Shown here: positions 12,484 through 26,200 of the stretch, one piece after another
Layout of the letters: every line of letters begins with the position of its first letter
Position numbering within the stretch: position 1 is the stretch's first letter
Source of the DNA: Spirosoma pollinicola
GTDB lineage: Bacteria; Bacteroidota; Bacteroidia; Cytophagales; Spirosomataceae
Reading direction: 5' to 3'
Assembly (NCBI RefSeq): GCF_002831565.1
Contig: NZ_CP025096.1
Span: 4,636,501-4,700,500, forward strand
DNA length: 64,000 bases
The notes under the pieces: model-generated
What the model saw: the letters and a program-made list of their open reading frames with translations, nothing else
Told to the model about the DNA's origin: nothing
Database searches by the model: none
Position numbers and translations under genes: made by a program

Positions 12484-13893
12484 TTACTGCAACCCCTCAA
12501 CTTTTACATCAATCCGGCCACGGGCATTCACAACAGCCAGCATGGCGGTGGGCGTCAAATAAACCTGATCGGGTTTGATTTCGTCGATGCGCCCGTTGAT
12601 CGTGACGCCTTTTACTACCTGATTATTTTTAAGTCGCTCCTGCAAAAGTTTTTGCATATCGGCCAGTTGACTGCCAATCGGGATGGTAAACTGTTTTTCG
12701 AGCGTTCGGGCAAAGGTGCCTTTCAGGAGCCAACTGGCCGACTGCTGCAAAATATTCCGGGTGTCCAGATCATATTTTAAATCCCTCAACGAAATGGTTT
12801 GGGAGTCCGCATCGTAGTAGGGTCGACCGCTCAAATAAATATCGCCGTTAATAGTGCCTTTAAGGCCAGCCTTAATGATGAGATTGTCATTCTGGCCGTA
12901 CATGTCCATGTCCGTAATGGTAATTGTATACCGATTTTCGCTGAACGAAAACGTTTTCCCGACAAACTCGTCGGCGGCAAGTTTAGCCGCTTCCTGATAG
13001 CTGGCCTCACTCAGCAAACCAATTCGAAAATCATCGTTTACCTGCGAAACCACGGTCAGGTCAGGAAGCGACACAGCGGGTTTGACATCTGGTTTATCAC
13101 CGGTTGTTGTAAGCGCAAAACCTTCGATCCCAATTGTAGCGCGAATAACGCGTCCCTCAAAACGGAGGGGCGTAATAAGCAACCGCTTGGGCACCACCTG
13201 CAAATAGGTCCGATATTTCTCAGAGATCAGATACGGCTCGCGCAATGTATTCCAGACTTTCAGAACGGGCGTTCGAAGGTCAATATTCCGGCGCACCTGC
13301 TGGTCCAGCGTTTTGGTTATGCTACCCAGGTTCTTGTCGATCATCCGTCCAACAAGGTTGGTTATGGGGATATTCAGGCCCACCACACTCACCGTTGGCC
13401 GACGTACCCAACCGTAGCCATCAGCCTCGGTATGCGTGTTGACAGACCAGTCTTTATCGAGATCAAACTTGGTTTTAAAACGCAGGTCTATTTCGAACTC
13501 CGTTTCTTTATACTGCGTAAAACCCAGCAACGACACACCCGCTTTGACCCAAATACGCAAAGGCACCGTGAAATGAAAAAGGCTATCCTGCGCATTTACG
13601 AGGATAGTCCCCCGCTTCCAGACCTTCGTCATGAACTGATCATTATGATTGTCGTCCAGGCTGTTATCCTCATAAATCAGGCCGTTTACCTGCGCATTGA
13701 TTTGTCGTTCAACATCGCCTAATGCAATCGAAACGGGTACGTGAGCCGTTGACAAAAAACGTTCATTCTGAACTTCCATCCGGGTGGTGTTATAAACTTC
13801 TTTGGGCGCTTTGGGATTCAGTTTGTTACCTGATGGCTGGCAAGATAGAATAAAAAGACTTAGACACAGCGCTACCCCAATTTGATGGCGCAA
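12484..13893 (-). CDS. DUF4403 lipoprotein
   Basis: The product (469 residues from the chosen TTG) has a short hydrophobic signal with lipobox FILSC at Cys18, so it is probably an envelope lipoprotein. The body matches the Bacteroidota DUF4403 type: an early VPVSIALGDVERQIN block, a middle with DLDKDWSVNTHTEADGY, and a late region with DLKYDLDTRNILQQSASWLLKGTF. Function is unknown; the fold resembles lipid-binding tubular proteins only loosely. No ATG exists near the signal peptide. The only reasonable start is a TTG at 13893, inside the arm of the inverted repeat 13884-14005, so that element has probably replaced the original start region. It lies downstream of the Smr gene on the same strand. 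Confidence 0.8.
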   Translation of the reverse strand: MRHQIGVALCLSLFILSCQPSGNKLNPKAPKEVYNTTRMEVQNERFLSTAHVPVSIALGDVERQINAQVNGLIYEDNSLDDNHNDQFMTKVWKRGTILVNAQDSLFHFTVPLRIWVKAGVSLLGFTQYKETEFEIDLRFKTKFDLDKDWSVNTHTEADGYGWVRRPTVSVVGLNIPITNLVGRMIDKNLGSITKTLDQQVRRNIDLRTPVLKVWNTLREPYLISEKYRTYLQVVPKRLLITPLRFEGRVIRATIGIEGFALTTTGDKPDVKPAVSLPDLTVVSQVNDDFRIGLLSEASYQEAAKLAADEFVGKTFSFSENRYTITITDMDMYGQNDNLIIKAGLKGTINGDIYLSGRPYYDADSQTISLRDLKYDLDTRNILQQSASWLLKGTFARTLEKQFTIPIGSQLADMQKLLQERLKNNQVVKGVTINGRIDEIKPDQVYLTPTAMLAVVNARGRIDVKVEGLQ

Positions 13894-14005
13894 GGCTCTG
13901 GCCTTGTGCCTACTATTCTCCGGCCTCTGGCCGGTATTATATAATATTATTAAATCGGCCAGAGGCCGGAGAATAGTAGGCACAAGGCCAAAGCCTTGTG
14001 CCATC
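13884..14005. repeat. Nested 50-bp inverted repeat
   Basis: Arms 13884-13933 and 13956-14005 match as reverse complements at 48 of 50 bases, around a 22-base AT-only loop region. Each arm itself contains two smaller palindromes (GGCACAAGGC...GCCTTGTGCC type, and CCGGCCTCTGGCCGG). The element fills the whole gap between the Smr gene stop and the DUF4403 start, and overlaps the first codons of the latter. No flanking direct repeat was seen. Confidence 0.92.
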
Positions 14006-17351: not shown

Positions 17352-17418
17352 ATTATGGTATTTATTTTGTTTACTCTTCAGGCTGATTAAAACTATAAAT
17401 AAGGGTTGTACTATCCGG

Positions 17419-17537
17419 TTTTTTGTCATGGCACCGGCCACCCGGCCCGACGATAGGAGGAATCTTAAACTTGCCTATTAGTCGAATTTAAGATTCCTTC
17501 TATCGTCGGGTCGGGTGGCCGGTGCCATGACAAAAAA
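17419..17537. repeat. 51-bp inverted repeat between the permease gene and eutB
   Basis: Arms 17419-17469 and 17487-17537 are reverse complements at 49 of 51 bases, with a 17-base loop. The outer ends are T6/A6 runs, so either strand could act as a terminator. It separates two genes of one pathway that read in the same direction. No flanking direct repeat is visible. Confidence 0.9.
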
Positions 17538-17603
17538 CTGCAACTCAATTCGACAAAAAAAAGAATATAATCAGGCTTTCTGTCTAGTTAACTGCTCTGG
17601 CAA

Positions 17604-24640: not shown

Positions 24641-24657
24641 TATGTTATAAATTTTGG

Positions 24658-24665
24658 TATATTTG
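24658..24665 (+). promoter_or_regulatory. -7 box TATATTTG directly at the antitoxin start
   Basis: TATATTTG ends three bases before the ATG at 24669. If it is used, the mRNA would start at or very near that ATG and be leaderless. The first possible ATG at 24654 would then lie upstream of transcription. Confidence 0.4.
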
Positions 24666-24668
24666 AGT

Positions 24669-24896
24669 ATGAGCAACTACGCCGAATTCATCCGTTTAAA
24701 TCCAAACATCCGGTTTGGGAAACCCTGTATTATTGGCACACGCATCGCCGTTCAGGACATTCTGGGTTGGCTGGCTTCAGGGATGTCCAACGTTGACATT
24801 CTGGAAGACTTCCCTGAACTAAGCCTTGAGCATATTCTGGCGGCTCTGGCCTTTGCCGCCGATAGTGAACGTCGAACTCGTCTGATTGCAGCCTAA
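24669..24896 (+). CDS. DUF433-family antitoxin
   Basis: The 75-residue protein contains the DUF433 pattern: IRFGKPCIIGTRIAVQDILGWLASGMS (residues 13-39) followed by ILEDFPELSLEHILAALAFAA. This family is a small winged-helix-like DNA-binding protein paired with PIN-like toxins; it should repress its own operon and block the toxin. An upstream ATG at 24654 would add five residues. Its stop TAA shares one base with the ATG of the toxin gene (TAATG), so translation is coupled. Confidence 0.88.
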   Translation: MSNYAEFIRLNPNIRFGKPCIIGTRIAVQDILGWLASGMSNVDILEDFPELSLEHILAALAFAADSERRTRLIAA

Positions 24897-25231
24897 TGAA
24901 ATTAGTACTGGACGCCAACTTATCATATCGATTAGTAAAAAAAATAACATCTGAATTCCCTGACTGCGTACACATCACCCGAACAGGCTTGCCCATTCCT
25001 GCTGAAGATGTTGCTATTTGGCAATGGGCAAAAATAAATAGCTGTATCATCGTTACGAATGATGATGATTATTACAATCTGGCAAATACGTATGGATTCC
25101 CGCCTAAAGTCGTCCTGTTAAGGATGGGAAATCAATCATCGACAGGTGTTATGAATACATTACTAAAGCATCGTGATGAGATTCAACAGTTGGACCAATC
25201 CAACGAGGTTGGGCTTTTAGAATTATTTTGA
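24896..25231 (+). CDS. DUF5615 PIN-like toxin
   Basis: The 111-residue protein shows the PIN-like core with acidic residues placed for metal binding: LVLDANLSYRLV at the N-terminus (Asp6), EDVAIWQWAK in the middle, and IIVTNDDDYYNLA, where the Asp cluster would complete the site. DUF5615 proteins are VapC-like putative ribonucleases. Together with the DUF433 gene just upstream it forms a standard type II toxin-antitoxin pair. Which RNA it cuts is unknown. The 45-bp palindrome at 25310-25402 lies about 80 bases after it. Confidence 0.87.
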   Translation: MKLVLDANLSYRLVKKITSEFPDCVHITRTGLPIPAEDVAIWQWAKINSCIIVTNDDDYYNLANTYGFPPKVVLLRMGNQSSTGVMNTLLKHRDEIQQLDQSNEVGLLELF

Positions 25232-25301: not shown

Positions 25302-25410
25302 GAATTGACGAGTGTCTTTGTCAGTCTGTCATTGGTACTATATACGCCATATCTTGGAGATATGGCGTATATAGTACCAATGACAGACTGACAAAGACAC
25401 TCGAATTGAC
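25302..25410. mobile_element. Perfect 45-bp palindrome with 8-bp flanking direct repeats
   Basis: The core 25310-25402 consists of two perfectly complementary 45-base arms with a 3-base loop (TGG). The octamer GAATTGAC stands immediately on both sides (25302-25309 and 25403-25410), the mark of a target-site duplication. It codes for nothing (93 bp) and would need a transposase from elsewhere. The right-hand duplication contains the TTG start of the next gene. Confidence 0.82.
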
Positions 25411-26200
25411 ACGTATTCAATTCAGCCTGATTACTTTCCGTTACTTTCTATTCTTACTTCTATTCTCTACAACGGGTTTTAGTCAGCAAAATCGGGTCAT
25501 CGACCGTAACGCAATCGGCTGGTTTACGTACAATGGCGACCATAAGCTGAATAAACGATGGGAACTCCATACCGAATATCAGTGGCGCCGGGTGGAACTG
25601 ATTCAGTCCTGGCAACAGTCGTTAGCCCGGCTCGGACTGGCCTTTACATTAACTGATCAGGTTAAGCTGGGGGGCGGCTACACCTTTTTTACGACCTATC
25701 CGTATGGCGACTACCCCGTTGCCGATGCGGGCGTTCCCACCATTGAAAACCGCACCCAGCAGGACATTCAATTTAGCGCTACCGCTGGAATCGTAAAACT
25801 AAGCCACCGCTTTCGACTTGAGCAACGTTGGCTTGGGAGCGGTGCAGACTCGAATCCGCGCCATATTGAGGGTTGGGAATACCAAAATCGTGCCCGCTAC
25901 CAGATTGCTGGCACCATTCCACTTCAAGGAGCGACCATCGACGATGGCGAATGGTATGTCAATTTCTTTGATGAACTGTTTATTGGTTTTGGTCGGAATG
26001 TTGAACAGAACGTTTTCAATCAAAACCGAATTTCGGGTGGCTTGGGGTATCAGTTTCGGGAATCGTTTAGTATTGAGTTAAACTACCTCAATCAGATTTC
26101 GCAACACCCCGAACTGGAGCCGATTACCCGTAAGCCGGTCTTTGAGATCAATAATGGGTTTCGACTGAACGTAAAGTATGACCTGGATTTCAGCAAATAA
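25406..26200 (+). CDS. DUF2490 outer-membrane beta-barrel-like protein
   Basis: The 264-residue protein has a Sec signal (FRYFLFLLLFSTTGFSQQ, about residues 11-28) and a body of alternating beta-strands with WELHTEYQWRRVELIQSWQQSL, LEQRWL and FEINNGFRLNVKYDLDF, matching the DUF2490 type of Bacteroidota outer-membrane protein. Function is unknown. There is no ATG close to the signal; the TTG at 25406 lies in the direct repeat beside the palindrome. In the sequence before insertion the same TTG would follow the present left flank, so the coding part was spared while its leader was replaced by a hairpin. Confidence 0.78.
   Translation: MTRIQFSLITFRYFLFLLLFSTTGFSQQNRVIDRNAIGWFTYNGDHKLNKRWELHTEYQWRRVELIQSWQQSLARLGLAFTLTDQVKLGGGYTFFTTYPYGDYPVADAGVPTIENRTQQDIQFSATAGIVKLSHRFRLEQRWLGSGADSNPRHIEGWEYQNRARYQIAGTIPLQGATIDDGEWYVNFFDELFIGFGRNVEQNVFNQNRISGGLGYQFRESFSIELNYLNQISQHPELEPITRKPVFEINNGFRLNVKYDLDFSK

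Follow-up and report, generated by a model that had tools for sequence, protein, structure and literature searches.

Palindromes of Spirosoma that share a conserved tip and keep perfect arms: a probable family of small mobile elements

A perfect palindrome that stands between two copies of an octamer, beside a DUF2490 gene, raises the questions of whether it was inserted there as a mobile element and of what keeps its two arms identical. It lies in the window, the whole stretch of 64,000 nucleotides of Spirosoma pollinicola that was analysed, which belongs to a genome of 8.79 Mb in a single contig (G000; the labels G and L denote genomes and loci). Both the sequence and an inverted-repeat search returned the layout described in an earlier note on this DNA, namely perfect 45-bp arms, a 3-base loop and flanking octamers, as well as the non-coding character and the size of 93 bp that it had given for the element (Table 1). 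With the outermost pair included, the arms span 25309-25354 and 25358-25403 (46 nt, 100% complementary, 3 nt apart); because this C-G pair overlaps the octamers, the element proper is taken as GAGTG...CACTC, 25310-25402. It is the sole 100% pair among the window's 8 inverted repeats whose arms reach 28 nt or more (distance up to 60), its predicted RNA fold has a z-score of -17 with 0 of 200 shuffles equally stable, and an exact octamer abutting both ends is expected by chance at about 4^-8 per palindrome. Two more long inverted repeats of the window, at 17418-17538 and 13884-14005, have arms of 58-60 nt that are 91-92% complementary.

Table 1. Features of the palindrome and its surroundings, in window coordinates.
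Feature	Position	Strand	Basis or remark
Left target-duplication copy, GAATTGAC	25302..25309	.	Single related sequence at five empty orthologous sites
Left arm, 45 bp (46 counting C at 25309)	25310..25354	.	Inverted-repeat search
Conserved family tip, 21 bp, GCCATATCTTGGAGATATGGC	25346..25366 (G000:C1:4661846-4661866)	.	Tip pattern search
Loop, 3 bases	25355..25357	.	Inverted-repeat search
Right arm, 45 bp (46 counting G at 25403)	25358..25402	.	Inverted-repeat search
Right target-duplication copy, GAATTGAC	25403..25410	.	
DUF2490 gene adjoining the insertion	25406..26200	+	TTG start within right octamer; relatives' ATG corresponds to ATT at 25430-25432

The adjoining gene had been identified as DUF2490 with its TTG start inside the right-hand octamer. 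The identity holds and an in-frame TTG is present at 25406, but its use as the true start is uncertain, since the ATG of the relatives aligns with ATT at this locus. The suggestion of the earlier note that the mRNA leader now starts with the hairpin would depend on this start codon and on the position of the promoter. Further upstream, a DUF433-DUF5615 pair (24654-25231), which we take to be toxin-antitoxin-like, occupies the place of a different gene in the relatives and has matches elsewhere in G017 and G007. Upstream of the palindrome, a short remnant, ACCGGACGATATTAA, at about 25255-25269 matches the end of that different gene.

The site is found without the palindrome in five related genomes (G027, G010, G017, G007 and G026). 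When the palindrome and one octamer are removed, the restored site aligns with all five relatives gap-free across the junction in a multiple alignment, with identities of 102/140 (G027), 106/147 (G010), 108/145 (G017), 107/143 (G007) and 107/156 (G026). The gene downstream of the orthologous sites is DUF2490 as well, the intergenic DNA of the relatives is recognisable, and G026 has GGTTTGACACGTA where the joined window site has GAATTGACACGTA. The earlier note had proposed an insertion with target-site duplication and had suggested looking for orthologous loci with a single octamer; a single related sequence was found in all five genomes, which bears the proposal out. At this same site, G027 and G010 carry a short hairpin with 13-bp arms, and G007 carries the same hairpin with one mismatch.

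Further copies tell the same story, and together with the dispersal of the family described below they support the mobility that had been suggested. Empty relatives were found for six of the ten loci tested in the source genome (L003, L005, L006, L008, L021 and L024), with four for L006, three for L024, two for L021 and one for L008; at L019 the relatives hold other hairpins, and L012, L014 and L015 were not judgeable. L005 provides a second exact 8-bp duplication, as GTTTTATT flanks the palindrome on both sides and occurs singly in the relatives L215, L222 and L231, while L225 has a different hairpin at that position. At L003 the palindrome breaks a coding sequence that is continuous in G014, G002, G022 and G010, so that 5 residues stand in for the final 20 of the relative L294, and a decayed duplication, TTCAAACT, remains readable with 6/8 positions matching; L003 (1472-1560) is thus a case in which a family palindrome cuts a conserved protein short near its C-terminus. 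Exact duplications of at least 8 bp were seen in 2 of 113 copies, the window copy and L005, where about 0.4 are expected from flank shuffles with generous slack, and across copies no clear general duplication signal was detected in any genome (p 0.02 in the source genome without slack). At the L021 site, L208 and L212 hold a different, imperfect long hairpin starting with a GTCATGCTGACGAAGGAAGCATCTT-like sequence, possibly another small mobile element.

The window palindrome is a member of a dispersed family whose copies have the tip in common but not the arms. The tip pattern GCCATATC-N(3-11)-GATATGGC has 23 matches in the source genome, all with a 5-nt centre (21 bp), and the reversed pattern has 0; all 39 one-sided tip 11-mers of this genome fall in family copies. 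The tip occurs in 15 of 36 Spirosoma genomes, at 0 to 29 copies each, and in 1 of the 186 genomes that represent other genera of the bacterial family. With a stricter pattern it was detected in 13 of 222 family genomes, comprising 12 Spirosoma and one of another genus (G221), which holds 24 copies by the looser pattern; the sole congener compared, G220, has none by the stricter one. Among named GTDB contigs, the 20-base tip was found in 15 stretches, all from Spirosoma, and the exact tip was absent from viral contigs. The 44-base arm has no exact match in the GTDB contigs, a set from which the source genome and very near genomes are possibly absent.

The outer ends differ between copies, and outside the source genome the arms of non-orthologous copies look unrelated. 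Among 92 of 113 arms compared, 17 pairs score at least 20 against 10 in shuffles, a small excess. In a blind test of the source genome's own arms, 9 pairs score at least 18 against 2.4 expected (p 0.005), a weak, significant similarity of the kind expected if spread there was recent; L003 and L005, for example, share 38 matches in 51 columns, tip included. Even copies that are young and still have their duplications intact are dissimilar in their arms, which is not what an ordinary MITE burst would leave, so that either old, already diverse copies are moved by cut-and-paste or the arms are rewritten in the course of movement.

No transposase with matching ends, as the earlier note had envisaged, was found by the end and tip pattern searches. 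As in MITEs, the window element is short, non-coding and made up entirely of inverted repeat, and the window copy and L005 combine an exact 8-bp duplication with an empty orthologous site; an autonomous relative with the same ends was not found, the patterns run on the source genome returning family copies or background only. The end pattern GAGTGTNTTTG gave 20 matches, 4 of them at the termini of L001 and L005; its reversed control gave 16. The sole inverted pair of ends less than 6 kb apart (3902738/3908050, 5.3 kb) encloses membrane-type and unassigned proteins and no transposase match; two of the proteins are without a Pfam or NCBIfam match, one of them also without a PDB match, and they are not transposase-like. 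A longer end pattern with 3 mismatches allowed returned L005, L008 and 10 unpaired others (control 3), and the lone tips of G010 and G014 proved to be tip-mutated copies or unrelated DNA, with no parent element among them. A link to RAYT was likewise rejected, because the Y1_Tnp count does not track copy number: G033, with 10 copies, has none, and G014, also with 10, has only one, at 1e-4. The tip is absent from 30 Y1_Tnp loci.

The symmetry of the arms was assessed in 151 distinct palindromes (23/23 read in G000, 29/29 in G010, 14/14 in G008, 10/10 in G014, 24/24 in G221, 9/10 in G003, 14/22 in G022, 9/15 in G032, and 19 in others), the longest perfect arms being 51 bp. Outside the tip, 3,565 arm pairs contain 3 mismatches, all three A opposite C, a count that applies to copies picked by their tip and to arms extended until mismatches become dense, heavily decayed outer arms thus being cut and uncounted. 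Past the palindrome edges, symmetry drops straight to chance (25% vs 26%).

A number of palindromes have orthologues in other species, both flanks aligning at about 70-90% identity, and these indicate how the symmetry behaves over time. In the orthologues L017 (TGATTTTTAGAATTTTAGCGATGGGACAAACGCC) and L102 (TGATATTTAAAGGGAAGGGACAAACGCC), for example, the arms differ between the two and each is symmetric. Seventeen orthologous comparisons of half-palindromes revealed 75 substitutions and 183 gap columns, against 1 internal mismatch; these comparisons use one genome per species and are not all independent (L013, L021, L206 and L207 recur), and L022/L104, L151/L011 and L137/L118 show poor alignment beyond the tip and could represent replacements. 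Since the two arms of a palindrome have been separated for as long as two orthologous arms, similar numbers of internal differences would be expected if the arms were uncoupled. These comparisons show that the arms drift, with both arms changing together, which supports the active upkeep of symmetry that the earlier note had offered as one reading of the perfect arms. Moreover, the palindrome edge of L131/L113 and of L142/L098 falls at different points of a flank that is present in both species, so that growth at the edge does occur.

The arms are corrected and the tip is not. In G000, G010 and G014 copies were selected through a single side of the tip, which leaves the partner side free of ascertainment. 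The 61 copies so selected carry tip mismatches at 9 of 610 partner positions, against 1 of 1,561 in the arms (Fisher p 8e-5); the very short L022, and L378, whose arms are decayed and whose tip has one mismatch, did not reach the threshold of this set, and five other matches of the one-sided search are unrelated DNA. Copies with one tip mismatch and intact arms are among the lone tip 11-mers of G010 and G014. Within a copy, symmetry is therefore kept least where the copies resemble one another most. At the L021 site the tip is altered on both sides in two relatives, so that the tip too is capable of mirrored change. The joint alteration of both arms with the loop side spared is the pattern associated with template switching.

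Taken together, the family is probably one of non-autonomous, MITE-like mobile palindromes that insert with an 8-bp target duplication and keep their symmetry through fold-back template switching primed by the tip. Insertion, with a stagger of 8 bp, would be the work of a trans-acting factor that recognises the tip and possibly also the GAG ends, and copies may persist mainly just after stop codons or between convergent genes, where a hairpin would be harmless or could serve as a terminator. During replication, the nascent strand would fold back on itself at the tip, whose stem would act as primer, and the polymerase would copy one arm from the other. Such copying would erase differences between the arms, would spare the priming tip and could move the edges into flanking DNA. 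The correction mechanism is one that we infer from the comparison of sequences; under fold-back priming the tip stem, being the primer, is not recopied and the arm beyond it is, which would yield the excess of mismatches in the tip noted above. More tentatively, the palindromes could represent a class of mobile DNA that inherits symmetry rather than sequence, in which the tip is both the handle of the trans-acting factor and the fold-back primer, and in which movement or replication keeps rewriting one arm from the other. If this is so, copies that share almost no arm sequence and yet stay perfect are to be expected, and the patchy presence, with 24 copies in G221 and none in its congener G220, would mirror the presence of the factor.

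The genomic setting bears on an unlikely alternative, namely that the palindromes are bidirectional terminators or mRNA 3'-end hairpins, whose arms are held by selection on RNA pairing and whose tip is a selected stem and not mobile. By crude ORF calls, the 127 Spirosoma copies lie between convergent (42), tandem (65) or divergent (5) genes or inside an ORF call (15), and in 94 of the 112 copies outside ORF calls a stop codon lies -20 to +35 of an edge; the convergent placements and the nearby stop codons suit a terminator. In G221 a stop codon is near the edge in 13/16 copies, and 8/24 copies are inside ORF calls. Read inward, the arms are C-poor and G-rich in G000 and G010, and A- and C-rich in G221, whose copies resemble two-way terminators in that each strand reads a stem and then a T-rich tail; the frequency of other hairpins at orthologous positions also fits. 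Against this, the window copy has neither a T-run nor a terminator call at the palindrome, wobble pairs are nearly absent from the 3,565 arm pairs (the first two arm mismatches are not G.T on the plus strand), and mismatches concentrate in the tip, a region that selection on RNA would protect no less than the arms. Furthermore, a 21-bp tip shared by unrelated loci, together with the empty sites, requires spread. A search of Rfam gave 14 matches up to an E value of 1, none above the gathering threshold and mostly to microRNA hairpins. One copy, L096 (1453-1549), extends 11 bases into both convergent genes by the crude ORF calls, so that its arms would provide both stop codons.

Growth in place, in which a fold-back switch copied native flank across a small hairpin so that one arm is ancestral local sequence, would account for the different edges within the shared flanks of L131/L113 and L142/L098. 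It is highly unlikely for the family, as at both the window site and L006 the relatives contain neither arm and the palindrome is a net insertion, the single-copy window arm is present at this site in none of the five relatives, and the identical tip recurs at unrelated loci. That the tip is the site of a chromosomal DNA-binding protein under selection, with the arms as a by-product, agrees with its near-symmetric 21 bp, its fixed spacing (a 5-nt centre in 23/23 copies of the source genome) and the patchy, as if factor-linked, distribution; this reading is very unlikely, since it leaves the empty sites with duplication and the long symmetric arms unexplained, and 39/39 one-sided tip 11-mers of the source genome in family copies means that lone sites do not occur there. 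Inverted chimaeras exist, and an artefact of sequencing or assembly might be imagined on that ground; its probability is negligible, since the same tip recurs together with perfect arms both at orthologous sites and across many separate genome records.

The mobile palindrome that is thus favoured resembles bacterial MITEs, RUP, YPAL/RU-2 and the Rickettsia palindromic element in being shorter than 200 bp, free of genes, built as an inverted repeat and flanked by a target duplication. Those families are known by their shared sequence, whereas copies of the Spirosoma family have the tip alone in common, each with symmetric arms of its own. According to the consulted part of PMC2229807, YPAL inserts at or beside dyad symmetry, as is the case here. 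In Rickettsia elements the identity of the repeats decays over time, unlike in the Spirosoma palindromes, and in Nematomorpha mitochondria long, mismatch-free inverted repeats have been judged actively maintained, with template switching proposed (both in the part of PMC6649704 used here); the latter are mitochondrial and lie inside coding genes, and that part describes no shared tip or target duplication for them. Mirrored changes, a conserved loop and hairpin priming are features of quasipalindrome correction in the sections consulted of PMC8794818 and PMC7202029, the former discussing hairpin-loop priming for RNA stems; there the process acts on existing short stems, whereas here it would concern a dispersed family with arms of 30-50 bp. 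REP/RAYT systems are likewise dispersed, extragenic bacterial palindromes; REP stems are 6-13 bp with a terminal tag (GTAG/CGTC) and common G-T pairs (PMC3733652, in the portion seen), and a Spirosoma genome with 10 copies, G033, lacks Y1_Tnp. Intrinsic terminators are hairpins after stop codons too, although the Spirosoma palindromes have far longer arms and a shared tip, and the window copy is without a T-run. Perfect inverted repeats across 118,019 genomes have been placed near terminators (PMC13155455, whose main text holds no words beginning Spirosoma, Cytophag or Bacteroid). In the portion of the literature covered on Spirosoma repeats, MITE palindromes, arm homogenisation, inverted repeats at convergent genes and concerted evolution of palindromic repeats, no published description of a tip-sharing palindrome family was found, and none of the consulted parts of PMC2229807, PMC6649704 and PMC3733652 describes a common tip together with free arms and symmetry that lasts.

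It has long been asked how hairpin stems can drift in sequence and still pair perfectly. One proposal for the maintenance of stems is template switching, put forward by authors who, in the Discussion of PMC8794818, call their own evidence circumstantial. The Spirosoma family offers more than 100 natural replicates in which the tip stays constant and the arms vary; relatives allow the insertion sites to be dated, and orthologous pairs lie at graded distances, so that the rate, the direction and the edge movement of arm correction become measurable. Setting the corrected arms against the uncorrected tip tests hairpin priming directly. The family also raises the question of how genomes tolerate perfect palindromes with arms of this length.

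Perfect arms are not exclusive to the tip family, although the latter is cleaner. In 464 kb of the source genome, 8 of 13 hairpins without the tip are perfect, with 11 mismatches in 305 pairs; these hairpins being less perfect, the correction of arms is not equally strong everywhere. An E. coli control had 0 hairpins with arms of at least 20 in 100 kb, a sample too small to carry much weight. In 400 kb of the tip-free genome G001 (L182-L201), 7 hairpins with arms of at least 20 were found, all 7 perfect and with different tips. Finally, the orthologous hairpins L040 and L041 of the low-tip genomes G004 and G005 have a common inner arm, AAAACAAAGGCC; L041 is slightly asymmetric, and the two possibly belong to a decaying or terminator-like subfamily.
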